Below are positions 2,154-34,182 of a stretch of 44,560 bases of DNA, piece after piece; within the stretch, counting starts at the first letter, position 1; every line of letters begins with the position of its first letter. The stretch covers positions 1 through 44,560 of the IMG/VR virus record IMGVR_UViG_3300026130_000372. One strand, 5' to 3'. The stretch is from a virus. The notes below the pieces were generated by a model. That model had not been told where the DNA came from. It searched no databases and saw nothing but the letters and a program-made list of their open reading frames with translations. Position numbers and translations under genes: made by a program.

Positions 2154-3412
2154 TGACCTACCTTTTTAACAAAGACGTAAACGTAACTAACCAATCAGAA
2201 GCTGATGAAGTATACGTCAGAGACAATAATAAAGAATTTACTTCTAGAGCAAGGCTCAAAGTCAGCCAAGTTGAAACCATGTGGTTCTCGACTTTCCAAG
2301 GCAGCATTTCTTCTGCTGAATGGGACACAGTTACAAGCGCAAACGGCACTTCTACACTAGATGCAAATGCCAACATGGTCAACATGACAGTAACCAGTGA
2401 TGCAGGATCCAAAGTTACACGTCAAACTCGCAAGGTCATGGGATACATTCCAAGTCGTCCTGCTACAGTTAGTATGGCAGCAGTATGGGGGGAGCAACCA
2501 GCAGGTATTCGTGTAAGACACGGTATCTTTGACGACGAAAACGGTGCGTTTATTGAAGTAGCAGACGGAACAAAATATGCTGTTATCCGCAGCAGCGTTA
2601 GCGGCAGTGTAGTAGAAACTCGAGTACCGCAGTCGCAATGGAACAGAGATCCTCTAAACGGCACAGGTCCTAGTGGTGTTACAATTGATTTCGAAAAAGT
2701 ACAGCTGATCAACATACACTACGAGTGGTACGGTGCTGGCAGTGTTGAATTTAGTTTGATCATCGACGGCTTTCGTATTAGATTCCACGACTTCCATCAT
2801 GCCAACGAACTTACTGGACCATGGATCAAAACACCGTTCTTGCCTATTAGAGCAGAGATTGAAAACATCACAGGTGTAGCTGGTACACACAACTTCAAGC
2901 AGTTGAGCAGTGCGATGACCAAAGAAGGCTTTGCTGCTACCAGTGGTACAGCCAACAACTATGCTACTCCAATTGCCGGTAGATCAATGGCAGTTGCTAA
3001 TACCTATTATCCAATGGTGAGCTTGCGTATGAAGTCAGACTTCCTTAACAACGTTATCTTTCCGACATACTTCCTAGCAGCTACATCAGACTCGTCGTTT
3101 ATTGGCTATAAATTGATTCGTAACGGAACACTTACAAATGCTAACTGGATTGACCACCCTAACGTCAGCAGTACTGCTCAAGTCGATACATCTGCTACAG
3201 CTATCAGTGGCGGAACTATCATCAACGAAGGATTTATTCCAGTAGGAACTAACCCAGGTCCGATACGTCTAGACGAAGGTTTAACCTATCAATTAGGTCG
3301 TAGTACTACAACTACTATAGGTGATACATCAGATATTATCACACTGGCTATTGCTTGCACAAGTACTAACAAAACAGGATATGGTTCATTGGGCTGGATC
3401 GAACAGCGTTAA
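2153..3412 (+). CDS. Virion (tail-fibre-like) protein, paralogue of the 1-1465 gene
   Basis: This 419-residue protein is translationally coupled to the upstream gene through TAATG. The block PQSQWNRDPLNGTGPSG near residue 165, followed by an aromatic segment ('IHYEWYGAGSVEFSL') and 'HDFHHANELTGPW', repeats the organisation of the window's first gene. The N-terminal third differs. No membrane segment or signal peptide is seen. Marine T4-like phages often carry several related virion proteins of this kind. Paralogous, partly divergent copies suggest receptor-binding or tail-fibre subunits that assemble together or vary host range. No catalytic motif is visible. Confidence 0.6.
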   Translation: MTYLFNKDVNVTNQSEADEVYVRDNNKEFTSRARLKVSQVETMWFSTFQGSISSAEWDTVTSANGTSTLDANANMVNMTVTSDAGSKVTRQTRKVMGYIPSRPATVSMAAVWGEQPAGIRVRHGIFDDENGAFIEVADGTKYAVIRSSVSGSVVETRVPQSQWNRDPLNGTGPSGVTIDFEKVQLINIHYEWYGAGSVEFSLIIDGFRIRFHDFHHANELTGPWIKTPFLPIRAEIENITGVAGTHNFKQLSSAMTKEGFAATSGTANNYATPIAGRSMAVANTYYPMVSLRMKSDFLNNVIFPTYFLAATSDSSFIGYKLIRNGTLTNANWIDHPNVSSTAQVDTSATAISGGTIINEGFIPVGTNPGPIRLDEGLTYQLGRSTTTTIGDTSDIITLAIACTSTNKTGYGSLGWIEQR

Positions 3413-3438
3413 AAGAAAAATAGCTTGCATTACTAACG

Positions 3439-3467
3439 ATAAATACCTGCATAATATGCAGGTATTT
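3439..3467 (+). terminator. Hairpin terminator with late promoter box in its left arm
   Basis: Two 13-base arms, AAATACCTGCATA (3441-3453) and its exact complement (3455-3467), are separated by a single A and end in a T run. A late box GATAAATAC (3439-3447) overlaps the left arm. RNA reading through from upstream contains both arms. RNA started from the late box would contain only the right arm, which also carries the weak AGG binding site of the next gene. Confidence 0.7.
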
Positions 3468-3469
3468 TT

Positions 3470-5470
3470 ATGAAAAGACTAAAGAAAAGTTTGTGCAGCA
3501 AGCGCACAGCCGTTAACCTTATAGGGTTAAGCAGCATCATCGTACTAGTAAGTATGATAGGGGTGTATGGTTACCATTATCTAGCTCACTCAGCCGATAA
3601 ATTTAGCATACAGTCACAGATACTACTGTTTATAGCAGGTATATTATTACTCAAGCGTCCGTTAAAAGGTCATATAACACACTGGCGAAGATTACTGCTT
3701 GTGTTAATAGGTTATGTTCTGCTGTCATATGTACCCGTAGGCTTGCGTGATATCGGCGGATGGGTTGATTATTTCTTCCAAAATACTTTTTATGGAGACA
3801 ACTTGACCGGTGTCAGCAGCGGATCCAGTCCTATAACACGACTAGGCGTACTATTGCTACTAATAGCAAGTTTATTATGTCCTAAAATCAAAAATGGCAT
3901 AAACGTTTTTTATGCTCTAGTTGGCGCAGTGGTATCTATACAAACAATCAATTTGTTGAGTTATATTGTTGAGGGCTCAAGTGTGTTACACCAGGGCACA
4001 AGCGTAGAAGTAATCTTGCTTACACTTGCTTACAGCATTGCTCTCTTATTCAAAAGCAGTTGGAAGTTTCCTATTCGCTATGCACTTCGCGACCCAAGCA
4101 CACGGCGTATGCAATTGTTTGCCTGGAACAGCATATGGGCAGTGCCGGTGATAATGCTAATTGGAGCGCATATATTCAGTCCTACAGATTTCGAACCTCG
4201 GCCTCAGTTTTACTTTTTATCAACTATAGGTGCTTGGGCTTACTACATTATTCTTGCACATTTCAACACTACTGTAGCACTAACAAGAACACGATTAGAA
4301 ATCAAGTCGCAGAAGATGCACAAGCTGGCTGTTACAGATTACATGACAGGAGCACCTAACCGAGCGGGCTTGCGCGAGTTCAAGGATCAGCACAGGAGCA
4401 CACCAATGAGTTTAATAGTGTTTGACATAGACCACTTCAAAAACGTAAATGATCGCTATGGACACGACACAGGTGACCATGTGATACGTACAGTATCTAG
4501 AACACTTCAAAAAAGCCTACGAATCAGTGACCCGTTTGTTAGACTAGGCGGCGAAGAGTTTCTAGTGATGCTGCCCAATACCAGCATAGAAGATGCAGAA
4601 GCAGTAGCAGAAATGTTGAGAGTGCAGGTAAGCGAACTAGATCCAGAAAACGATTTGTCTATTTTAGGGCCAATCACAGTCAGTTGCGGTGTAAGCGATT
4701 ATGCACCAAGACAAGAACACTTTGATGATGCTCACAGGAGGGCAGACAAAGCACTATATGTTAGCAAAAGAAATGGGAGGAACAGAACCACTGTGTTGGC
4801 AAAAGCGAGCTTTAATATTATAGAAAACTTTAAGCGTCCTGTTATATACGGACAAGAAATACGAGACATGCGAACTGAGACAGCAACAGCTATAGAACTG
4901 TTGGCAAGGATACCTGGAGTAGATCCAGAATTATGGTTTATGTCAGCACCTACAGATACTATTGCAGCACTATTTAACGATCAACTAGCAATAGCTCGTG
5001 ACGTACACCGTTCAACAGGTCTGATGCCTACTATCAATATAGATTCAGACTTGTTCAACACATTGGATTGGGATGAGATTGCTCAATTCATATGTGATAC
5101 TCCTATAGGCTTTGAGATTACACACATCAAAGGCTTGCCCGGACCTAATAAAGTAGCAGCCGCAAGACTTGCACTTCCCAGAACTGCTCTGCTGTTGTTT
5201 GATGACTATGAACCAAGGCATGAATCGATACTAGAACAATATTCAGTTGACATAGTAAAGATTGACAGGAACTATGTCAAACTAGATCCGCAGTCTGCTG
5301 CCTGTTCTGTAGAAAATATTGTAAACAGTGGTAAACGTGTGATAGTAGAAGGCATTGATCCAGAGGATTCTGAGTTAGAGCAGATGTTTATAGAAGCGGG
5401 AGCAGAATTTATACAAGGCTTCAAATACCACAAGCCAGAGTGTATACACGATTATATGTACAACAAATAG
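3470..5470 (+). CDS. Membrane GGDEF-EAL protein (c-di-GMP synthase/phosphodiesterase)
   Basis: The N-terminal 270 residues hold about seven or eight hydrophobic segments, so this is an integral membrane sensor. The GGDEF domain follows: DYMTGAPNR (290-298), the metal-binding FDIDHFKNVND (318-328) and an active-type GGEEF (360-364). RISD lies exactly five residues before GGEEF and matches the RxxD product-inhibition site. The C-terminal half is EAL-like and keeps E476, N523, E549, D578-D579, K597, E627 and Q649, but the usual DDFGTG loop reads DDYEPR and the EAL motif reads ELL. Synthesis of c-di-GMP is therefore likely and breakdown is uncertain. The start at 3470 sits directly after a hairpin with only a weak AGG site. 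It lies just upstream of two secreted-protein cassettes, and c-di-GMP enzymes are rare in phages. Confidence 0.9.
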   Translation: MKRLKKSLCSKRTAVNLIGLSSIIVLVSMIGVYGYHYLAHSADKFSIQSQILLFIAGILLLKRPLKGHITHWRRLLLVLIGYVLLSYVPVGLRDIGGWVDYFFQNTFYGDNLTGVSSGSSPITRLGVLLLLIASLLCPKIKNGINVFYALVGAVVSIQTINLLSYIVEGSSVLHQGTSVEVILLTLAYSIALLFKSSWKFPIRYALRDPSTRRMQLFAWNSIWAVPVIMLIGAHIFSPTDFEPRPQFYFLSTIGAWAYYIILAHFNTTVALTRTRLEIKSQKMHKLAVTDYMTGAPNRAGLREFKDQHRSTPMSLIVFDIDHFKNVNDRYGHDTGDHVIRTVSRTLQKSLRISDPFVRLGGEEFLVMLPNTSIEDAEAVAEMLRVQVSELDPENDLSILGPITVSCGVSDYAPRQEHFDDAHRRADKALYVSKRNGRNRTTVLAKASFNIIENFKRPVIYGQEIRDMRTETATAIELLARIPGVDPELWFMSAPTDTIAALFNDQLAIARDVHRSTGLMPTINIDSDLFNTLDWDEIAQFICDTPIGFEITHIKGLPGPNKVAAARLALPRTALLLFDDYEPRHESILEQYSVDIVKIDRNYVKLDPQSAACSVENIVNSGKRVIVEGIDPEDSELEQMFIEAGAEFIQGFKYHKPECIHDYMYNK

Positions 5471-5508
5471 CAAATGGCTCGTTTTGAGCCTATTTGCCAT
5501 GGTTTTTT
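5471..5508 (+). terminator. Rho-independent terminator after the GGDEF-EAL gene
   Basis: CAAATGGCTC (5471-5480) pairs with GAGCCTATTTG (5486-5496), with one bulged T and a short loop, and a T6 run follows at 5503-5508. It directly follows the stop codon at 5470. Confidence 0.65.
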
Positions 5509-5517
5509 ACAAATCGA

Positions 5518-5525
5518 CTAAATAC
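5518..5525 (+). promoter_or_regulatory. Late promoter-like box before the first secreted cassette
   Basis: CTAAATAC matches the variant late box used elsewhere in the window (for example 11859-11866). If used, it makes a leader of about 250 bases before the ATG at 5780. Confidence 0.4.
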
Positions 5526-5582
5526 GTTTGTAATAACAGCACTGAGGGCAATTCAGAGGGCTTTAGTTATTACCGTGATGGC

Positions 5583-5615
5583 CGAGGCGGTAAACACGTA
5601 AAAAATGGTACCTCG
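5583..5615 (+). ncRNA. Conserved-loop hairpin, copy 1
   Basis: The stem CGAGG (5583-5587) pairs with CCTCG (5611-5615) around a 23-base loop. The loop begins CGGTAAACACGTAAAA and ends ATGGTA. Copies 2 and 3 have the same loop length and nearly the same loop sequence but different stem bases that still pair, the mark of a structured RNA. I cannot assign it to a known Rfam family by eye. Confidence 0.6.
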
Positions 5616-5719
5616 AGCAAAGTTAGACTTTGGTTCGGGGGAGCTATTAATATCTTACTAACAACCCCATTCAATTTCTAACTATGCGTTTTACGTAGAA
5701 TTCTACGTGACGTGAAGGT

Positions 5720-5750
5720 TGAGAGGTAAACACGTTAAAAATGGTGCTCA
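5720..5750 (+). ncRNA. Conserved-loop hairpin, copy 2
   Basis: The stem TGAG (5720-5723) pairs with CTCA (5747-5750) around a 23-base loop that starts AGGTAAACACGTTAAAA and ends ATGGTG. It lies about 30 bases before the start of the first secreted cassette, so it could control translation there. The ATG inside the loop (5742) is in frame with the gene but is not the start, because the good binding site and the signal peptide begin at 5780. Confidence 0.6.
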
Positions 5751-5779
5751 CTATTGTTCGTAATAGGGAGGGCACAAGA

Positions 5780-6400
5780 ATGAACAAATCAATATTAGCA
5801 GCACTATTAGGTACTGCTCTATTCGCAACTACTGCTTCAGCAGTTCAACTAGATGTAACAGGTCCAGACAATGGCAACCTTGATTGGCTTGGCAGCATCG
5901 AATCAGCATGTGGTCTACAAGACTTCGTAGACGGTCGTGTTACAGCAAACATTAATCAAGACACACTTTCAAGCACATTCAGCGGCGGCGCTGTCGCAAG
6001 CGTAGACGTTCGTACTAATACTGACGGTTATACTCTTGTGCTTGGCGAGCCAAAACTACTTGATGCAGACACTGAAGAAGACATCTCACAATGGGCAGCA
6101 GAGTTTGATATCGATGCAAGTGCTACAGGTGTTGATCTAATGGGAAACAACGCAGGTACACTACAACAAAATAGCGCCGGTGATATTGTATTCACTAACG
6201 GCGGAAGCTATGAAGTAGAAGCAGATGCAACTGTATACGCTAACCTAAAAGGTGGTTTCCCAGCAGGTGACTACATTGTTCGTGTACCAGTAACATGTGT
6301 GCTTGAAATGAGTGGCAATGACGGAAGCGGTAACAAAGGTGTTGGCGTTGGCAATGGTGGCGGAAACGGCACTGGTAATGAAGGTCAAGGTAACGACTAA
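5780..6400 (+). CDS. Secreted two-cysteine pilin-like protein (cassette 1, gene A)
   Basis: This 206-residue protein opens with a clear Sec signal peptide (MNKSILAALLGTALFATTASA). The start at ATG 5780 follows AGGGAGGG; the longer frame from 5741 would run through the leader hairpin. The mature part has one Cys near its N-terminus (ESACGL) and one near its end (VPVTCVLE), a spacing that could form a disulfide joining the first and last strands of a beta sandwich. 'GDYIVRVPVTC' resembles the last strands of fimbrial or spore-coat-U-like subunits. A Gly/Asn-rich tail follows. Genes B, C and D follow, overlapped or closely spaced. The pilin-like role is inferred from architecture and from the chaperone-like gene next door. 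Confidence 0.6.
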   Translation: MNKSILAALLGTALFATTASAVQLDVTGPDNGNLDWLGSIESACGLQDFVDGRVTANINQDTLSSTFSGGAVASVDVRTNTDGYTLVLGEPKLLDADTEEDISQWAAEFDIDASATGVDLMGNNAGTLQQNSAGDIVFTNGGSYEVEADATVYANLKGGFPAGDYIVRVPVTCVLEMSGNDGSGNKGVGVGNGGGNGTGNEGQGND

Positions 6401-6768
6401 TGATAGGCAAAGTTCTAACAACACTTTTACTTTTGATAGCAGGCACAGCTCAGGCTGTGTCTATATATCCAAACGTAATAGAACTTGAAGGACAGCCAGG
6501 TGCAATAGCATCGGTACAAATGGAAGTATACGGACATCCTAGCTACGAAACTATTGAGTTTGTAAAAGTTGAAAGTATACGAGATGACAACGATCAAGTA
6601 CTAGCAACATTTGCGCTTGGATCAGAAGACAGATCATTTGTACCGATTGATATTGTTATCCCAAACATTGCGAAGGAGTATTACATATGCGCAGTATTAA
6701 AAAATTCACAATCTATGCGCTTGCGAGTTTGTTCATTGGTGCGAGCAGTGCCTACGCTGACACAATGA
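6400..6768 (+). CDS. Secreted one-domain chaperone-like protein (cassette 1, gene B)
   Basis: This 122-residue protein overlaps gene A by one base (TAATG). It starts with a signal peptide (MIGKVLTTLLLLIAGTAQA), followed by 'VSIYPNVIELEGQPGAIASV', which resembles the first strands of the PapD-type periplasmic chaperone N-terminal domain. It ends with a Cys pair (YYICAVLKN...RVCSLVRA) that the matching gene at 8129-8533 also has. Only one immunoglobulin-like domain fits the length, whereas classical pilus chaperones have two. Its last 82 bases overlap gene C in another frame. The chaperone call is a pattern match and needs a structure comparison. Confidence 0.5.
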   Translation: MIGKVLTTLLLLIAGTAQAVSIYPNVIELEGQPGAIASVQMEVYGHPSYETIEFVKVESIRDDNDQVLATFALGSEDRSFVPIDIVIPNIAKEYYICAVLKNSQSMRLRVCSLVRAVPTLTQ

Positions 6769-7100
6769 TCCCAGGATCACCGAGCGTAGTAGAAGGCGGC
6801 GACAGTGTTCGCGGCAGAGACGGAACAACTTGTAAGCAAGGAACATACCATAGTCCAACACTTGACTTTGGTATTACAGCAAACAATCTAGACAGCTATG
6901 ACGATACATTTGGTAATTTTAATCAAAATAGATCAAGAAGCGACGATGTAGGAGTCTACGCACGGGTTGTTATCCCTTTGGGTAACAACAAGATACCAAG
7001 AGTTGATTGTACTCAGTTGTATCAATTAGAAATACAACGATTACAAATGGAACTTGAAAGAATGCAAAACCAAGGGTCATCTAGTATTGTTGTAAGATAG
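6687..7100 (+). CDS. Secreted protein with C-terminal coiled coil (cassette 1, gene C)
   Basis: This 137-residue protein starts at ATG 6687 behind AAGGAG, inside gene B but out of frame with it. A signal peptide (ending SSAYA) precedes a mature region with 'GTTCKQGTYHSPTLDFGI', a beta stretch 'VGVYARVVIPLG', a second Cys (RVDC) and a terminal heptad-like helix (LYQLEIQRLQMELERMQ). The gene at 8475-8879 has the same order: Cys, beta stretch, Cys and helix. It may be a periplasmic or outer-membrane partner of gene A. I do not recognise the family. Confidence 0.6.
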   Translation: MRSIKKFTIYALASLFIGASSAYADTMIPGSPSVVEGGDSVRGRDGTTCKQGTYHSPTLDFGITANNLDSYDDTFGNFNQNRSRSDDVGVYARVVIPLGNNKIPRVDCTQLYQLEIQRLQMELERMQNQGSSSIVVR

Positions 7101-7110
7101 GAGACAGATA

Positions 7111-7497
7111 ATGAACTCACAAGACAATGACAATAATAACAATAATAACGATAACCAACAGAGAAGAAGGAGCGACCTTACGATGCAACCAGCAACAGTG
7201 TTAAGCATAGCATTTGCTTTTTTTAGTTTGATCTGGGCTGGCGGCACAGCCTATCAAAGATTAGTATATCTTGAAAGTTGGAAACATTCACATGAATCAG
7301 AAGTAATGACTAGAGCGAGTAAGTCTGATTTAGTTGAGTTAACCAGTAGAATGGAAGCTGAACTAGCGATGGTTACTCAACATCTTGAGGCTGAAGTGCA
7401 AATGGAACGTGCTTTCAGTAGATCATTATGTGTGGCTTTATCGCATACTCAGACGGCAGCAAATGTTCCTGTTACAAACGATTGCGCTAGACCTTAA
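7111..7497 (+). CDS. Single-pass membrane protein with coiled coil (cassette 1, gene D)
   Basis: The 128-residue product begins with an Asn/Asp/Gln-rich cytoplasmic segment, then a single membrane span near residues 28-48 (ATVLSIAFAFFSLIWAGG), then a helical region suited to a coiled coil and a short tail with two Cys. AGGAGA precedes ATG 7111. The gene at 9129-9521 has the same plan and the same position after its cassette. Candidates are an anchor for the secreted proteins or a spanin/holin-like lysis component. The sequence does not decide between them. Confidence 0.55.
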   Translation: MNSQDNDNNNNNNDNQQRRRSDLTMQPATVLSIAFAFFSLIWAGGTAYQRLVYLESWKHSHESEVMTRASKSDLVELTSRMEAELAMVTQHLEAEVQMERAFSRSLCVALSHTQTAANVPVTNDCARP

Positions 7498-7546
7498 GCC
7501 AGGGGGGGCGAAAGATTTAGCTAATGCTAACGCTAACGTGCAGGAG

Positions 7547-7587
7547 CAAGGAGGCAAACACGTAAAAATTGGTGCCTTGATTTTTTT
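7547..7587 (+). ncRNA. Conserved-loop hairpin, copy 3, followed by T7
   Basis: CAAGG (7547-7551) pairs with CCTTG (7575-7579) around a 23-base loop starting AGGCAAACACGTAAAAA. A run of seven T follows at 7581-7587, so this copy could also end transcription. It lies between cassettes 1 and 2, about 30 bases before the next ribosome binding site. A terminator joined to a conserved loop is the usual arrangement of a riboswitch-type attenuator; here that is inference. Confidence 0.6.
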
Positions 7588-7618
7588 AACATTATAATAT
7601 ATTATAGGAGAACATATA

Positions 7619-8116
7619 ATGAAAAAATCAATTATCGCAGGTGCAATTGTTGCACTAATGTCAACTTCAGTTTTCGCTAACGAAAACTTCAAGATTGAAG
7701 GCTCTGCAACTGGTTTAGCGGCAGGTTGCTCTTTCTTTGCAGTTACTGACGGAAGCATGGCTTGGGATGAGTCTGTAAGCACTTGGTACACTCAAAACCC
7801 AGCTGCTATTCGTATCAAAACTCGTGACGTAGTATCAGTAGATATTACTAACGATGGACAACTACGTGATACTGTAGGTGCAGTAGATACACCAGAGTCT
7901 ATTGATTACACTGATTCAACTGTTAATACAGAAAACGCTCGCAACGCTGGTGTTATCGATCCAGTTGTTACAGAAGACAAGTACTCTGTAACTGAGCTAG
8001 CTGGTGGTAACGTATTGAACATCAAAGTAGATCACACTGTCAAGACAACTGATTCATTTGTTGCTCTAAACGATGTGGCTTACCACGTTCAAAACACTGC
8101 AACTTGTGTGCAGTAA
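7619..8116 (+). CDS. Secreted two-cysteine pilin-like protein (cassette 2, gene A)
   Basis: The 165-residue protein has a Sec signal peptide (MKKSIIAGAIVALMSTSVFA) and starts at ATG 7619 behind ATAGGAG. The mature part is beta-rich with one Cys near its start (AAGCSFF) and one two residues from its end (TATCVQ), the same layout as the gene at 5780-6400, although residue identity is low and the Gly/Asn tail is missing. Genes B and C follow directly. It is probably a second, diverged subunit of the same kind of assembly. The conserved-loop hairpin with T run sits just upstream. Confidence 0.6.
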   Translation: MKKSIIAGAIVALMSTSVFANENFKIEGSATGLAAGCSFFAVTDGSMAWDESVSTWYTQNPAAIRIKTRDVVSVDITNDGQLRDTVGAVDTPESIDYTDSTVNTENARNAGVIDPVVTEDKYSVTELAGGNVLNIKVDHTVKTTDSFVALNDVAYHVQNTATCVQ

Positions 8117-8128
8117 TAGGAGATAGTG

Positions 8129-8533
8129 ATGCAATCAATTAAACTAATGATTGTATCCTTACTCTTTGGAGTCGTGGCATCGCAAGGTGCCATGGCTCAC
8201 TCAATGACGCCGGGATACGAAAAGATATTTGCACCAGGTACTGCTAAAAGTATCAGGTACACAGTTAAAAATGATTATGATTACCCTGCCACATTTAGGG
8301 TAGAAGTCTATGACAAGTACGGAGAAGAACTTGAAGTAGATTGGAAAGTTGACAAAGAAGCATTCAAACTATTCTCAGACGCAAGCCAAAGAGTAAACGT
8401 CAAGATTAGAATGAAAGAAGGCATAAAAGAAAGAAAGGTTCTAGTATGCTCGGTACTAGACAAGGTTGGATATAATGACGAAGAACCTGCTACCATTAGT
8501 CGTGTTTGCAGTCGTCTATGGCTCTGGCGTTAA
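8129..8533 (+). CDS. Secreted one-domain chaperone-like protein (cassette 2, gene B)
   Basis: The 134-residue product starts at ATG 8129, six bases after AGGAG; the GTG at 8126 is too close to the site. A signal peptide ending in GAMAH is followed by 'MTPGYEKIFAPGTAKSIRYT' and 'VKNDYDYPATFRVEVYDKYG', close to the pattern of a PapD-type chaperone N-terminal domain (Pro-Gly loop, a strand with V-x-N, then a Pro and an R-V-E strand). The C-terminal Cys pair (VLVCSVLD...RVCSR) matches cassette 1 gene B. Its end overlaps gene C by 59 bases out of frame. Of the two B proteins this one shows the chaperone pattern more clearly. Confidence 0.6.
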   Translation: MQSIKLMIVSLLFGVVASQGAMAHSMTPGYEKIFAPGTAKSIRYTVKNDYDYPATFRVEVYDKYGEELEVDWKVDKEAFKLFSDASQRVNVKIRMKEGIKERKVLVCSVLDKVGYNDEEPATISRVCSRLWLWR

Positions 8534-8879
8534 TGCTGCTGGAGTCACTGACAAGTATAGGTCAGAGTCAGGAGCAGAGTGTACTGCTTCTTACGAAGAC
8601 AACCAAAGATTTGAGTTTGGGTTCGAAGGCGATCCAAACGCAAGAGACGAAGGCGCTTTAACCATCGTAGGAAAGTATGTGTACACGTTTGGCGGAGACA
8701 AGAATAGATCAAGGCTGAACTGTTTCACAACACAAAGATTAGAAGAAGAACGCATGATGATTGAAAATGAAAGATTGCGTTTAGAACTGGAACTGTTAAA
8801 GATCCAAGTAGAAGCTGAGAAGAACGCTTCAAAAGATCAAGTAACAGTTACAGACACGGGTTCAGACGACGACTGGTAA
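8475..8879 (+). CDS. Secreted protein with C-terminal coiled coil (cassette 2, gene C)
   Basis: This 134-residue protein starts at ATG 8475 inside gene B, out of frame. It has a signal peptide (MTKNLLPLVVFAVVYGSGVN), then 'GAECTASYEDNQRFEFGF', a beta stretch 'GKYVYTFGG', a second Cys (RLNCF) and a long charged helix (QRLEEERMMIENERLRLELE). This mirrors the gene at 6687-7100, including the out-of-frame overlap with gene B. It ends with an acidic Asp tail. The role is unknown; it is probably a secreted partner of the pilin-like protein. Confidence 0.6.
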   Translation: MTKNLLPLVVFAVVYGSGVNAAGVTDKYRSESGAECTASYEDNQRFEFGFEGDPNARDEGALTIVGKYVYTFGGDKNRSRLNCFTTQRLEEERMMIENERLRLELELLKIQVEAEKNASKDQVTVTDTGSDDDW

Positions 8880-8917
8880 CAGTCTAGTCAACGGGTTGCC
8901 CCCCGGCAAGTGCAGGA

Positions 8918-8947
8918 GAGGTGGAAGCACTATAATCTAGGTACCTC
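8918..8947 (+). ncRNA. Conserved-loop hairpin, copy 4 (diverged)
   Basis: GAGG (8918-8921) pairs with CCTC (8944-8947) around a 22-base loop that begins TGGAAGCACTATAATCTA and ends GGTA. The loop aligns with copies 1-3 but is less conserved. GTGCAGGAG precedes the stem here and also before copy 3. A small hairpin TTGCC/GGCAA with a C4 loop (8896-8909) lies just upstream. The TATAAT in the loop could serve as a -10 element. Confidence 0.4.
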
Positions 8948-9002
8948 CCTAATAAATTGTAGAGAGATTTGCAATGCTTTTAACAAAGAGACAAAGCGTG
9001 AT

Positions 9003-9119
9003 ATGAAAAAGCTAATAACTGCTAAGTTCAAAAGTTGGAATATGATACACTACATAATTGTGCTATCTCCAATAAGTATAGTTATAGTTGCATTAATTGC
9101 AGCTCAATTCATGTTATAG
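9003..9119 (+). CDS. Very small single-pass membrane protein
   Basis: This is a 38-residue reading frame (MKKLITAKFKSWNMIHYIIV, then a hydrophobic run ending AAQFML). A short basic N-terminus is followed by one membrane span. The start at ATG 9003 has only a weak purine-rich region upstream (AAAGAGACAAAGCG). An upstream extension in the same frame runs through the copy 4 hairpin and is probably not translated. It lies between cassette 2 gene C and the gene D-like protein and stops ten bases before the latter starts. It could be a small holin-like or accessory protein. Confidence 0.45.
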   Translation: MKKLITAKFKSWNMIHYIIVLSPISIVIVALIAAQFML

Positions 9120-9128
9120 GAGAAAAAC

Positions 9129-9521
9129 ATGGCAGGTAATGTAGAAAATTTCAAGGTAAGCCTTGGCGTACTGTTTGTGGTATTGCTACAAGGTGGTGCG
9201 TTTGTTTGGTGGACAGCACAACAAGCAAGCACACTAGAGCAGTTGGCAATAACCGTTGGCAAACTAGAACAAAAAATAGATGACGGTAAATTAGTTATTA
9301 TCCAGCGAGATATTAAAGATTTGCACGAAGATATAGAAGTATTGCAAAAGAGCATGACCTCTATGCAGCAGTTGCATTATAATGATATGCGAGGCGCATA
9401 CGATAAGTTCAAAGAACATGAGAACATGATTACGTATAGCGCAACTATAGATGAGCTAAATGATGTGATAGATGATCTAGAAGAACTTGAAGGCAAGCTA
9501 GAAGATATCGGCATTAATTAA
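9129..9521 (+). CDS. Single-pass membrane protein with long coiled coil (cassette 2, gene D)
   Basis: The 130-residue protein starts at ATG 9129 behind AGGAGAAAAAC. One membrane span lies near residues 11-30 (VSLGVLFVVLLQGGAFVWW), followed by about 95 residues of charged heptad-like helix (LEQLAITVGKLEQKI, 'DIKDLHEDIEVLQKSM', and an acidic C-terminus). The plan equals that of the gene at 7111-7497. It closes the cassette region and is followed by a terminator. A membrane anchor or spanin/holin-like role fits equally well. Confidence 0.55.
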   Translation: MAGNVENFKVSLGVLFVVLLQGGAFVWWTAQQASTLEQLAITVGKLEQKIDDGKLVIIQRDIKDLHEDIEVLQKSMTSMQQLHYNDMRGAYDKFKEHENMITYSATIDELNDVIDDLEELEGKLEDIGIN

Positions 9522-9526
9522 GATTA

Positions 9527-9559
9527 ACCCCGAGCTAGTTTCCTAACCCGGGGCGTTTT
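9527..9559. terminator. Terminator between convergent operons
   Basis: CCCCG (9528-9532) pairs with CGGGG (9549-9553) and is followed by GTTTTAT. It lies between the plus-strand cassettes and the minus-strand gene ending at 9624, so it may serve both sides. Confidence 0.5.
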
Positions 9560-9623
9560 ATATGTACTTTATTATATAAAGGACTATGTCCCGATTAATT
9601 ATTATACTGCTATAAAATATTAT

Positions 9624-30584: not shown

Positions 30585-31733
30585 ATGCGGTTAGAAACCG
30601 ATATTAAACTAGACTACAAAGACGTACTCATTCGTCCTAAGCGTAGTACACTAGGCAGTCGTAAGGAAGTAGACTTAGAACGTAAATTTACATTCCGTAA
30701 TTACAAGCCGGACTTTCCTGACAACGTAGAAGACTATCACTATCGTGGTATTCCTATTATGGCTGCTAACATGGACGGTGTCGGAACGTTTGAAATGGCA
30801 GATACTCTGTCAGCAAACGGAATTTTTACTTGTTTAGTTAAAACTTATAATGCAACTGAGCTAGTTGAGTTCTTTAACGCAGGACTTGTAAACAGGCAAG
30901 AACATGTAGCAATGAGCATCGGTATCACTGACAAGGACTTTTACAAGTTTCAAAACGTCTACGGTGCAGTTGACAGTGGTAACTTAAAATACGTTTGTGT
31001 AGATGTAGCAAACGGATACTCAGAACGCTTTGCAGAATTTATTCGCAAACTACGTGCTAGTTATCCACATATTGTAATCATCGCCGGAAATGTAGTAACA
31101 GGCGAAATGACGGAGGAATTGATTCTTGCTGGCGCTGATATTGTTAAAGTGGGCATTGGCCCTGGGAGTGTATGCACTACTCGTATACAGACTGGTGTGG
31201 GTTATCCTCAACTCTCCGCAGTTATCGAATGTGCGGACGCTGCCCATGGCCTTGGAGGTCATATCATTGCTGATGGCGGCTGCACTTGTCCTGGTGATGT
31301 CGCAAAAGCATTTGCCGCCGGTGCAGATTTTGTAATGCTAGGAGGTATGCTAGCAGGTCATGACGAAGGCGGCGGCGAAGTAATCACCAAGTACTTTCAA
31401 ACGAATGAATACGATCAATGGCTATCAACTTCTAGAGCTAAACTTAAAGTTGAGGAAAAGAAGTTTGTACAATTCTACGGTATGAGTTCAGAAAGTGCAA
31501 ACAAGAAACACTTCGGCGGACTAAAAGACTATCGCAGTTCCGAAGGACGAACTGTACTAGTTCCATATCGCGGAGCAGTAATGAATACTGTACAGGATAT
31601 ACTAGGCGGTGTGCGTAGTACTTGTACGTATGCAGGTGCTAATACTCTTAAACAACTTAGTAAGTGTACAACGTTTGTTCGTTGTACGCAAACACATAAT
31701 GGTGTGTACGAAAACTCAACTATAGGTAATTAA
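30585..31733 (+). CDS. guaC: GMP reductase / IMP dehydrogenase family
   Basis: The 382-residue barrel enzyme opens [20 protein letters not shown], the start of the GuaC/GuaB family. It has the nucleotide-binding '[20 protein letters not shown]' with the catalytic Cys, '[20 protein letters not shown]' and '[17 protein letters not shown]'. It lacks the CBS domains of IMP dehydrogenase, so it fits GMP reductase (GMP to IMP with NADPH), which returns guanine nucleotides to adenine and general purine use. It follows bS21 and precedes groES by one base. A phage GMP reductase may recycle host RNA-derived GMP. Confidence 0.88.
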
Positions 31734-31734
31734 T

Positions 31735-32022
31735 ATGAATTTAAGACCGCTACATGATAAACTCATTATCAAACTCCAAGAAGCGGAGACACAAACAGCC
31801 GGCGGACTCATTATTGCAAATGCAAAAAATGAAGGCATTGTTAAAGCTGAAGTACTAGCATCTGGACCAGGTACTTACGACAGTAAAGGAAACTTTATCG
31901 AAGTTAGCACAAAGCCAGGTAGTACTATTCTCGTTAACAATATGGCCGGACAAAAATTTAAACACGACGAAATGGAATACGTTACAATATCAGAAAACGA
32001 AATAGTAGCAGTTTTATCGTGA
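31735..32022 (+). CDS. groES: GroES-type co-chaperonin
   Basis: The 95-residue protein has 'MNLRPLHDKLIIKLQEAETQ', the mobile loop region 'TAGGLIIANAKNEGIVKAEV', 'GTYDSKGNFIEVSTKPGSTI' and 'DEMEYVTISENEIVAVL'. This is the normal GroES length and order. T4 and relatives need a phage GroES substitute (gp31) for capsid protein folding; this one is closer to the bacterial type. It probably caps host GroEL during virion protein folding. Confidence 0.94.
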   Translation: MNLRPLHDKLIIKLQEAETQTAGGLIIANAKNEGIVKAEVLASGPGTYDSKGNFIEVSTKPGSTILVNNMAGQKFKHDEMEYVTISENEIVAVLS

Positions 32023-32058
32023 TAAATAAATGCGTAACGCCGAAAGGGTTACGTTTTT
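32021..32058 (+). terminator. Terminator with GAAA loop behind a late box
   Basis: CGTAAC-G-CC (32033-32041) pairs with GG-GTTACG (32046-32053) around GAAA and ends in T5. A late box GATAAATAA (32021-32029) immediately precedes it, so a late transcript starting near 32036 would omit part of the left arm. Confidence 0.7.
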
Positions 32059-32085
32059 AATCTTGCTTAATAAAGGAGAAATAAA

Positions 32086-32574
32086 ATGACAAGACTAACA
32101 ACTCTAGACCTACCTCAACTACACAGAGCTACTATTGGCTTTGACAGACTGTTTAATGAACTAGACAGACAGTTTCAAAATAGTCCAAACAGTACAGGTT
32201 ATCCTCCATACAATATTGCACAAATCAACGACGACGAATACATGATTAGTATTGCTGTCGCAGGATTCGGCATGGGTAACTTAGACATTACTAAAGACGG
32301 TAAGATTCTGCGTATCGAAGGTACATCTCCTAAAGGGGGTGAAGAAGTAAATTACCTACATAAAGGAATTGCTAATCGCAACTTCCGTAGAGAGTTTACA
32401 CTTGCTGATCACGTTGATGTAGTTAGTGCAGGCCTTGAACTAGGTATGCTTAACATACACCTGAAGCGTGAAATACCAGAGGAACTACAACCTAAGAAAA
32501 TTTCTATTACAGACTATAACGGTACTGTACAAGAAGCAATCGAAGGCGAGTTTGACGGAGAAGTAGGCAAGTAA
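32086..32574 (+). CDS. Small heat-shock protein (Hsp20/IbpA-like)
   Basis: The 162-residue protein has an alpha-crystallin domain: 'YNIAQINDDEYMISIAVAGF', 'DITKDGKILRIEGTSPKGGE', 'NRNFRREFTLADHVDVVSAG', 'LELGMLNIHLKREIPEELQP'. The short N-terminal arm holds 'LPQLHRATIGFDRLFNELDR'. Hsp20s hold unfolding proteins. Cyanophages and pelagiphages commonly encode one. It is in a late transcription unit with its own terminator. Confidence 0.94.
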   Translation: MTRLTTLDLPQLHRATIGFDRLFNELDRQFQNSPNSTGYPPYNIAQINDDEYMISIAVAGFGMGNLDITKDGKILRIEGTSPKGGEEVNYLHKGIANRNFRREFTLADHVDVVSAGLELGMLNIHLKREIPEELQPKKISITDYNGTVQEAIEGEFDGEVGK

Positions 32575-32580
32575 TTGTCT

Positions 32581-32606
32581 TGGGGGAGTTAATACTTCCC
32601 CATTTT
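32581..32606 (+). terminator. Hairpin terminator
   Basis: TGGGGGAGT (32581-32589) pairs with ACTTCCCCA (one G-T pair), loop TAAT, and a short T4 run. The T run is weak. Confidence 0.5.
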
Positions 32607-32625
32607 ACAACCAATGGAGATAAAC

Positions 32626-32931
32626 ATGAGTACATCTACCGACGTAGTAATCGACGAAAAGATTAAACAAGAAATCAGCGAACCAATTAAATACAACGTG
32701 ATTTTTCTAAATGATGATCACACCCCTATGGATTGGGTCGTTAACGTACTAACTGAAATATTTAAGCACAGTCAAGAATCTGCAGAACGTATCACTCTTA
32801 CGATACATACAGAAGGAAGTGGAGTTGCAGGAACGTACAGTCACGAAATCGCTGAGCAAAAAACAACCGAAGCAATTAATGCAAGTAGAAATAATGGTTT
32901 CCCACTTAAAATTACAATGGAGGCAGAATGA
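32626..32931 (+). CDS. clpS: ClpS-type protease adaptor
   Basis: The 101-residue protein has the ClpS pattern: 'KYNVIFLNDDHTPMDWVVNV' with the NDDHTP segment that lines the N-degron pocket, and 'HTEGSGVAGTYSHEIAEQKT'. Start ATG 32626 has GGAG six bases upstream; ATG 32614 would place the site inside the gene. ClpS delivers N-end-rule substrates to ClpAP. A phage copy may redirect host proteolysis. It overlaps the heme oxygenase gene by four bases (ATGA). Confidence 0.93.
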   Translation: MSTSTDVVIDEKIKQEISEPIKYNVIFLNDDHTPMDWVVNVLTEIFKHSQESAERITLTIHTEGSGVAGTYSHEIAEQKTTEAINASRNNGFPLKITMEAE

Positions 32932-33524
32932 CTAGTTTAAAAGAACTAACTAGAGAGCATCATACAAATGCAGAACGACAAGAATTTGTTAATGTTCTAA
33001 TGAGCGGAAAAATAAATCCAAAATTTTACGCAATATACCTATTCAATCAATTTACAAAATATTCATTATTAGAAGATTTAATAATAGGTAATATACCAGC
33101 AGCTAGAGATGTAATGCAGAGGATAGAACGTAGACATAAAATACATGAAGATTTTATTGAACTGTGGGACGATCCTGCTAACCCACCTGAATTACTAGAG
33201 GCAACTCATGATTACATGCAACGTTTAATCGAGTTTGCTACTAATGATAAAATCGATAAAAAATTGTTGCTAGCACATATGTATGTACAACATATGGGAG
33301 ATCTAAGCGGCGGCCAAATGATAGCAACAAAAGTTCCTGGCGAAGGTAAGATGTATAAATTTAATGATGATGTAGAGATTCTTAAAGACGATATACGTGA
33401 ATTGCTATCTGGTAAGGAAGCATTACTAGCTGAAGAATCTAAGTTTGTATTTGAAAGTGCAACTAAACTTTTCCAAAATCTAATGGAGCTAGACATTGAG
33501 CATTATATGGAATCATCTGATTAA
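32928..33524 (+). CDS. Heme oxygenase (biliverdin-forming)
   Basis: The 198-residue all-helical protein carries the heme-oxygenase signatures: 'LKELTREHHTNAERQEFVNV' with the proximal heme-ligand His near residue 11-12, and 'HMYVQHMGDLSGGQMIATKV', the distal GDLSGG helix (124-129). It opens heme to biliverdin, CO and iron using ferredoxin electrons. The next gene is a bilin reductase, so the pair runs heme to a bilin pigment, as in cyanophages and some oceanic phages. It is translated from the ATGA overlap with clpS. Confidence 0.93.
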   Translation: MTSLKELTREHHTNAERQEFVNVLMSGKINPKFYAIYLFNQFTKYSLLEDLIIGNIPAARDVMQRIERRHKIHEDFIELWDDPANPPELLEATHDYMQRLIEFATNDKIDKKLLLAHMYVQHMGDLSGGQMIATKVPGEGKMYKFNDDVEILKDDIRELLSGKEALLAEESKFVFESATKLFQNLMELDIEHYMESSD

Positions 33525-34182
33525 TTGTCAGAACGAAATTATTAAAATATTTGACAGTTATGCAACAGAATACGAAGAACCAGGTCTTGCTCACTTTAAT
33601 AACGATACTTGGATCAACCGCGTTTGGCATAGTGATAGTGTGCGCAGGGCGCACATTGATGTCGTAGATGCACGTGAAACGAAAGGCTTATGGATGATGC
33701 ATGTAACTGTCATGCCGCAACTAGACAATGATGCACCTATCTTTGGATTTGATGTTATTGCAGGAAAAAACAAAATGACAGGTGCATTCCTTGACTTTAG
33801 TGCAAGCTCTAATCCAGATCATCCTATGATGCACGGCTATGCTGAAAGTGTAGCCGATTTTATTCCTAAAAAGAAACGTGAACTACCTGACTGGGCTAAA
33901 AATATCTTCTCAGAACACATGCTTGCCGCAGGCAATGTAAACACAGAAGAAGAAGCAGTTGCTATTATTCAACTGGCACTTGACAATCTACAAGCATACT
34001 TCGAAGAAGTAGCAGAGTACACAGGAGACGGTGACCCAGAAGAAGTTAAATCAGCACACAACTATTACGCACACAATCAGCAACAGAATCCGCACACACC
34101 AAGAACAATGAAGAGTCTAGGTCTAAACGAAGACGATGTAGACTTGTTCTGCAGAGACATGTTGTTCCCCAAGATTGCATAA
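33496..34182 (+). CDS. pcyX: Ferredoxin-dependent bilin reductase (PcyX/PebS-like)
   Basis: The 228-residue protein fits ferredoxin-dependent bilin reductases: 'ETKGLWMMHVTVMPQLDNDA' leads into 'PIFGFDVIAGKNKMTGAFLD', the family's strand with catalytic Asp/Glu neighbours, and the C-terminal 'LFCRDMLFPKIA' mirrors the FV-x-DFLF end of PebS/PcyA. It follows heme oxygenase directly, so biliverdin is the likely substrate and phycoerythrobilin a likely product (PcyX and PebS do four-electron reduction). The start is unclear: a TTG at 33496 overlaps the upstream gene by 29 bases and there is no in-frame ATG until residue 67. Which product is made cannot be read from sequence alone. Confidence 0.82.
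   Translation: MSIIWNHLINCQNEIIKIFDSYATEYEEPGLAHFNNDTWINRVWHSDSVRRAHIDVVDARETKGLWMMHVTVMPQLDNDAPIFGFDVIAGKNKMTGAFLDFSASSNPDHPMMHGYAESVADFIPKKKRELPDWAKNIFSEHMLAAGNVNTEEEAVAIIQLALDNLQAYFEEVAEYTGDGDPEEVKSAHNYYAHNQQQNPHTPRTMKSLGLNEDDVDLFCRDMLFPKIA

Follow-up and report, generated by a model that had tools for sequence, protein, structure and literature searches.

Introduction

Bacteria swim or settle according to the second messenger c-di-GMP, which also shapes the bacterial surface to which phages bind. Among the closest described architectures to the one reported here are those of proteobacterial tandem GGDEF-EAL membrane proteins, namely the PA0861/RmcA type, MorA, BifA, DosP and LapD. As far as the available parts of the respective reports go, a diguanylate cyclase is carried by Bacillus phage SP-15 (PMC5977210), a marine viral diguanylate cyclase, that of the Mu-like Cariaco Basin viruses, has been proposed as an auxiliary gene (PMC7785012), and the receptor glycan of phage N4 comes from a c-di-GMP-dependent pathway (PMC8669472).

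Here we have analysed a linear viral contig of 44,560 bases, IMG/VR record IMGVR_UViG_3300026130_000372, the whole of which we call the window. At 3470–5470 on the plus strand it carries an ATG-initiated gene for a membrane-bound GGDEF-EAL protein of 666 amino acids, an assignment that draws on the open reading frame, Pfam, hydrophobicity, AlphaFold2 and fold matches. The protein is like its proteobacterial counterparts in domain order, folds, GGDEF active site and EAL metal ligands, but unlike them in its non-canonical loop 6, in an EAL domain that scores under the Pfam cut-off, in a membrane part with no Pfam family, and in being phage-borne. The SP-15 gene (KT624200, SP15_150) is likewise an accessory-region gene of a large phage, and its product is 40.5% identical to the window protein over the GGDEF domain; however, that product has only 183 amino acids, consists of a GGDEF domain with no EAL, and its gene sits in a carbohydrate gene block. 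The Cariaco Basin viruses differ in being Mu-like and transposase-bearing, and the available part of their description covers neither an EAL partner nor a gene cassette of the kind found in the window (PMC7785012). The protein family phrog_11823, which spans 693 positions, matches both a GGDEF (241–424) and an EAL (584–687) stretch, as does the window protein; its function is not given, however, and the window protein matches it over the GGDEF part only (E ≤ 1e-3).

A GGDEF gene carried by a phage, even together with an EAL domain, is therefore already known, and is uncommon rather than new. What is new is a GGDEF/EAL pair that is maintained in T4-like phages, with a linked cassette of secreted proteins and an RNA element; for such a pair in T4-like phages no paper was found in the open-licence PMC literature.

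The gene, its protein and the GGDEF half

The 666-residue protein consists of a transmembrane region (residues ~1–265), a GGDEF domain (287–439) and an EAL-like domain (~455–660). Hydrophobicity indicates about six to eight membrane stretches within residues 12–240, and a Pfam search assigned this membrane part to no family. AlphaFold2, run with a 38-row alignment, modelled the GGDEF and EAL domains well and the membrane part poorly: 10-residue blocks of residues 271–440 had confidence values of 91–98, with one exception at 72, and those of the EAL domain had values of 67–96. In a fold search the model matched the solved GGDEF-EAL protein PA0861 (E 4.3e-25), and the matches returned by Foldseek and VIA-align were solved GGDEF-EAL proteins and also single EAL domains. 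The confidence of the two modelled domains and their match to solved GGDEF-EAL proteins argue that the GGDEF-EAL reading is not due to chance.

The GGDEF domain (4328–4786, plus strand; residues 287–439) scores 129.1 bits against its Pfam model, with a cut-off of 23.8 (E 1.7e-37). An earlier note on this DNA, made from the letters alone, had claimed that the metal, substrate and product-inhibition residues are kept, and this holds: DIDHFK lies at 319–324, GGEEF at 360–364, and RISD at 351–354 provides an RxxD I-site five residues ahead of GGEEF. The metal residues D319 and E362 are present, as are the GTP-binding and transition-state residues F323, K324, N327, D336, K433 and R437, in which the spacing of PleD is kept; their PleD counterparts are F331, K332, N335, D344, K442 and R446, as given in the available part of the source (PMC12943098). 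The intact site, together with the I-site, suggests that the domain is a real, self-limited diguanylate cyclase.

Terminator-like hairpins followed by T runs flank the gene on the plus strand. The upstream one, at 3441–3467 directly 5′ of the ATG, has a folding energy of −14.6 kcal/mol (z −5.89; 0/200 shuffles equally stable), and the downstream one, at 5470–5510, of −15.3 kcal/mol (z −3.87; 1/200 shuffles equally stable). A consensus terminator scan listed neither of them on the plus strand, and the call rests on the folding result. The T run of the upstream hairpin touches the ATG, and an AGG ribosome-binding stretch is found inside the hairpin (3441–3472). A promoter scan of the window was at chance level, with 6 found and 7.5 expected. 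The motif TATAAATA was considered as a late promoter and dropped, as it occurs 3 times in the window versus 4.4 expected from shuffles, and 4 times versus 3.0 in the viral locus L350; no copy of TATAAATA lies directly 5′ of the GGDEF-EAL gene.

The phage and its relatives

Upstream of the gene are two virion structural proteins (phrog_1645), and the best-scoring matches of the second are from Kyanoviridae cyanophages, at 43–46% identity over 94–95% of its length. The genes downstream encode secreted proteins, glutaredoxin- and peroxiredoxin-like proteins and a tail spike-like protein with matches to Mtd_N and pectate-lyase, and beyond it NrdA and NrdB. These are followed by a GMP reductase/IMPDH-type gene, by GroES-, Hsp20- and ClpS-like genes (by eye), and by heme oxygenase and bilin reductase. 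The block from the GMP reductase-type gene to bilin reductase (30585–34182) recurs in another record, L120, at 78–99%, and Pelagibacter phage Mosig has a heme oxygenase and a bilin reductase that are 43 and 51% identical to those of the window.

Through its NrdA the window is linked to a set of viral contigs whose NrdA proteins are 82–96% identical to its own, one of these contigs being 330,024 bases long. Gene order is common to many viral contigs, with up to 17 of the 45 window proteins collinear and on the same strand in one of them (L097). Given these NrdA-related contigs and the collinear gene order, the window phage is a member of a large-genome, T4-like group. The composition of the GGDEF-EAL gene (GC 0.415, GC3 0.366) is close to that of nrdA (0.413 and 0.344). 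That the gene is carried by a phage, as had been proposed before, is borne out by the structural genes upstream, by NrdA/NrdB downstream and by a gene order that is kept in viral contigs.

None of 35 relative records has a match to the GGDEF-EAL protein, and Pfam GGDEF was found in none of 41 relatives (30 of the NrdA group and 11 of the structural-protein group, many of them fragments), so that the window alone has one. Since relatives lack GGDEF, the gene appears to be an accessory insert that is dispensable for the phage group, with the proviso that many of the records are fragments. In the matching region of three relatives (L175–L177) there are accessory genes of other kinds, by eye pstS/pstC/pstA/pstB-like and 5-aminolevulinate-synthase-like.

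A second phage with the pair surfaced in an IMG/VR scan with a GGDEF alignment. This contig, IMGVR_UViG_3300026125_000048 (17,729 bases; L265 hereafter), has the phage genes topoisomerase II large subunit (phrog_543) and GroES, five tRNA genes, and also UvsY- and UvsW-like genes (by eye). Its module is split: a GGDEF protein of 435 amino acids (E 2.1e-34) is followed, 4 bases after the end of its gene and in a different frame, by the gene for an EAL protein of 235 amino acids, which by eye has no evident membrane helix and scores above the Pfam cut-off (89.7 bits, E 2.4e-25). Between the two phages 52 of 236 aligned positions are identical in the membrane part, 68 of 158 in the GGDEF domain and 67 of 208 in the EAL domain. 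With the same scoring, the window EAL gives 59.9 bits against that of L265, whereas the best among 369 gammaproteobacterial genomes gives 29.4. In a GGDEF tree of 84 rows, in which 45 of 81 inner branches are left open, the window and L265 are not joined; with a 50-row set, a tree that holds them together has a likelihood 18.3 above the free tree (p-AU 0.876), so that this grouping is not rejected. The trees are thus compatible with a single origin of the two domains without proving it.

The EAL-like half

The EAL-like domain (4832–5449, plus strand) is recognised by Pfam over residues 588–656 with 18.1 bits (E 0.0019), below the cut-off of 31.3. Its TIM-barrel fold (residues ~445–666) is matched with Z ~22 by 4q6j, 5m1t, 8arv and 3u2e, with rmsd values of 2.6–2.7 over 206–218 aligned positions. 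The claim that this half keeps its catalytic acids, lysine and glutamine (N523, E549, K597, E627, Q649) stands, and so do the two departures named with it, ELL at 476–478 in place of EAL, and DDYEPR from 578 in place of DDFGTG. The ExLxR motif is present as E476-L-L-A-R480.

We take E476, N523, E549, D578, D579, K597, E627 and Q649, all kept in the window, to be the eight metal and catalytic positions, chosen by presumed equivalence to RocR. In L265 all eight are identical, at an overall identity of about 32% (67/208), and the chance of this given the overall identity is P 8.6e-5. As all eight are the same in both phages at ~32% identity, the key residues appear to be under selection, and because the second phage keeps a separate EAL gene with all of them, the window EAL does not look like a decaying leftover. 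The earlier note had named lost key residues in relatives as a ground for rejecting an active enzyme; no such loss was found in L265, the one gene-bearing related phage, and most relatives lack the gene.

In active EAL enzymes loop 6 is DFG(T/A)GYSS, which the available part of one source calls essential (PMC12943098). Both phages have a non-canonical loop 6, DDYEPR from residue 578 in the window and DDYDMN in L265. What is presumably the equivalent of RocR E268 is H in one phage EAL and Q in the other. With the loop 6 motif missing in both phages and this glutamate replaced, the domain may have no phosphodiesterase activity. The kept residues suggest at least c-di-GMP binding, and the changed loop 6 suggests a weak or conditional cleavage of c-di-GMP; the two halves may oppose each other or the EAL half may act as a sensor, the two options named in the earlier note.

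Bacterial and viral carriers

At E ≤ 1e-32 the window protein is matched in 10 of 369 gammaproteobacterial and 5 of 385 alphaproteobacterial genomes, always centred on GGDEF and at 34–48% identity, in scans that scored at most three candidates in most genomes and that weaker or rarer relatives can escape. In a scan of genome contigs, 79 of 80 loci are without the EAL part, and the remaining one (L250) extends to residue 656 at 26%. The comparison with bacterial GGDEF-EAL proteins that had been proposed as a route to the source of the gene gave no full-length relative, either in the Gamma- and Alphaproteobacteria or in the contig scan.

Among phage records, 113 of 50,697 match the window protein at E ≤ 1e-5, some of which are bacterial DNA (e.g. 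ON470595), and none covers 80% of the protein; seven PHROG families match it as well. The stretch of ON470595 (filed as an Escherichia phage) that holds the diguanylate cyclase gene resembles the E. coli chromosome, with dbpA, zntB and smrA as neighbours. In light of these counts and of the published cyclases, the statement that such genes are scarcely known in phages is right in that they are uncommon, but is put slightly too strongly.

The IMG/VR scan with the window protein alone found nothing, and scans with the two phage GGDEF or EAL domains found the module in the L265 contig only. From the GGDEF-alignment scan the best 80 of 307 confirmed loci were taken, and large viral contigs bearing GGDEF include L272 (190 kb), L321 (238 kb), L380 (210 kb), L383/L387 (394 kb) and L388 (138 kb). 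An EAL domain above the cut-off is found in 4 of 50 GGDEF-bearing viral records, the 394-kb contig included, where the set consists of 46 of the best 80 loci (mostly near-identical ones were dropped by hand) and 4 of 12 new loci from a narrower GGDEF scan, two of these 12 sharing a record. Among the four EAL-positive records, G839 (19.9 kb) is possibly bacterial DNA. In a 110-kb viral contig (L335, 4731–10706) GGDEF lies inside a frame of 1,992 amino acids with sigma-factor- and primase-like PHROG matches.

The 394-kb contig, IMGVR_UViG_3300021400_002728, also pairs the two domains, with a GGDEF gene immediately after an EAL gene (L387, 5428–8501); it differs in this reversed order, in a canonical EAL (184.5 bits) and in a DNA polymerase A-like gene nearby. 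Elsewhere it has split Rpb1-like pieces, FtsH and a serpin-like gene. IMG/VR scans with proteins A and B of the cassette described below did not surface that cassette on it.

A linked cassette and its leader element

Behind the module is a set of four genes that occurs twice in tandem (5741–9521, plus strand). In unit 1, protein A (5780–6400), which is shared with L265, has a signal peptide by eye; protein B (6400–6768) has a predicted structure of seven strands, of moderate confidence; protein C (6687–7100) is apparently secreted, with a coiled-coil-like end by eye; and protein D (7111–7497) has one transmembrane helix by eye. Unit 2 (7619–9521) has A at 7619–8116, B at 8126–8533, C at 8466–8879 and D at 9129–9521. 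By eye, proteins A to C seem to be secreted and protein D to be anchored in the membrane. The L265 proteins are identical to those of the window at 69–71% (A1), 71% (B1), 69% (C1) and 41% (D1), and L265 A2 is 87% identical over its first 67 residues, where the contig ends. The linkage of module and cassette is thus seen in two phages.

Proteins A and B are without a Pfam or NCBIfam family and have no match at E ≤ 0.1 among the 50,697 phage records, and IMG/VR scans with each of them surfaced the cassette in the L265 contig only. The model of protein B (mean pLDDT 69) gave fold matches of a general Ig-like kind (E about 1e-3), with no PapD-type chaperone among the 50 matches listed. A pilin or chaperone identity of the cassette, which had seemed likely by eye, was supported neither by a PDB sequence search nor by the fold search.

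Each cassette unit is preceded by a short element, present as a tandem pair before A1 (5573–5615 and 5710–5751, plus strand) and once before A2 (7536–7579, plus strand), with two further copies on the minus strand of L350 (2093–2051 and 283–240). The motif stops 27 to 39 bases short of the start codon of A, and the first tandem copy before A1 lies further upstream. It can be drawn as a putative H-type pseudoknot, with a helix 1 of CGTG/CACG, a helix 2 of five pairs whose letters vary, and conserved joining stretches GGNAAA and TNAAAAN-TGGT. Pairing holds in 47 of the 50 cells of the five copies, and all five pairs of helix 2 show two-sided changes, while helix 1 is nearly invariant and hence little informative on covariation. 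The covariation is 0.520 versus 0.224 in shuffles (0/500 as high) and ≤0.156 when the helix is slid, a control that is biased in favour of the pseudoknot, whose structure was itself read by eye off these five related copies; further pair types, at 6 versus 6.4 in shuffles, are not in excess. Ordinary folding of the elements was no better than that of shuffles (z −0.65 to 0.21). Rfam 15 gave no match at E ≤ 1 within 3300–9600 and none at gathering in the window. Covariance models hold pseudoknots poorly. The core motif, searched in 394 sequences, occurs only in records or loci of the two phages, and of 369 gammaproteobacterial genomes one contains the core pattern, at a place where helix 2 has no counterpart. 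No paper on such a leader element was found in the open-licence PMC literature. On the evidence of these alignments, the leader of each cassette unit can form a covarying H-type pseudoknot.

Discussion

We consider it reasonably probable that the window gene encodes a diguanylate cyclase that is active and limited by feedback, that its phosphodiesterase half is weak or regulated, and that the protein alters the envelope of the infected cell. The activity of the enzyme, the direction in which it shifts c-di-GMP, the consequences for the cell and any connection of enzyme and cassette are what we infer, and the known pieces may be assembled otherwise. The protein could be a net phosphodiesterase, in which GGDEF is a GTP-binding control and c-di-GMP is lowered by the EAL half, so that motility is freed or c-di-GMP made by the host is removed. 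The EAL acids kept in both phages would fit this, as would the L265 EAL, a protein of its own that scores well above the Pfam cut-off; we nevertheless hold it to be fairly unlikely, as the GGDEF domain is the better kept of the two (68/158 versus 67/208 identical), its active site is complete, and loop 6 is unlike that of active EAL enzymes. A non-canonical loop 6, a membrane part and GGDEF-EAL order would suit a receptor of the LapD type, which binds c-di-GMP through EAL, has little enzyme activity and relays a signal into the periplasm, and LapD is among the fold matches. The GGDEF domain of LapD is degenerate, however, whereas that of the window is intact; the window protein reaches 32.5 bits with the NCBIfam LapD model against a cut-off of 1020; and the L265 EAL, as a separate protein without evident membrane helix, cannot alone signal across a membrane. 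A receptor role is accordingly improbable.

Bacterial DNA might have been misjoined to a phage contig, as is seen in some supposed phage records with GGDEF such as ON470595, but the phage genes on both sides, the matching composition, and the independent phage contig L265 with the same module and cassette leave this reading nearly refuted. A role against host defence, with the pair altering immune cyclic dinucleotides by decoy supply or by cleavage, would have a parallel in jumbo phages, which are said, in the available part of one source, to bear other cyclic-nucleotide enzymes as counter-defence (PMC7824862). It is very unlikely, given that PADLOC had no match for the window protein, the L265 EAL or the cassette, its two weak matches both being of one coiled-coil protein, and that a cyclase is not expected to be useful against cyclic-dinucleotide systems.

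In the cyclase reading that we prefer, an accessory phage gene with its own hairpin boundaries would place its product in the inner membrane of the infected cell. The GGDEF half would make c-di-GMP and limit itself through the I-site, and the EAL half would bind c-di-GMP and, having retained its metal ligands but changed loop 6, cleave it weakly or only in response to a signal. A raised or buffered level of c-di-GMP could then leave the host non-motile and its surface altered during infection, and the linked secreted cassette may be part of the same envelope-directed programme. A membrane cyclase beside envelope-directed genes might thereby bring about less motility, altered receptors and perhaps the exclusion of a second phage.

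A bolder extension, which we regard as decidedly doubtful, is a private c-di-GMP circuit, in which the enzyme sets the level and the pseudoknot leaders are a new class of c-di-GMP-responsive switch that activates the envelope proteins; if this were true, a virus would have its own second-messenger writer, eraser, reader and output. On the cyclase reading itself, infected cells would be steered through the host's own lifestyle switch by a lytic-type phage equipped with both synthesising and degrading domains, next to secreted proteins that have an RNA leader in common. The module would then be an instance of second-messenger takeover that is open to direct test, and the cassette leader a candidate RNA regulatory element of a new kind.
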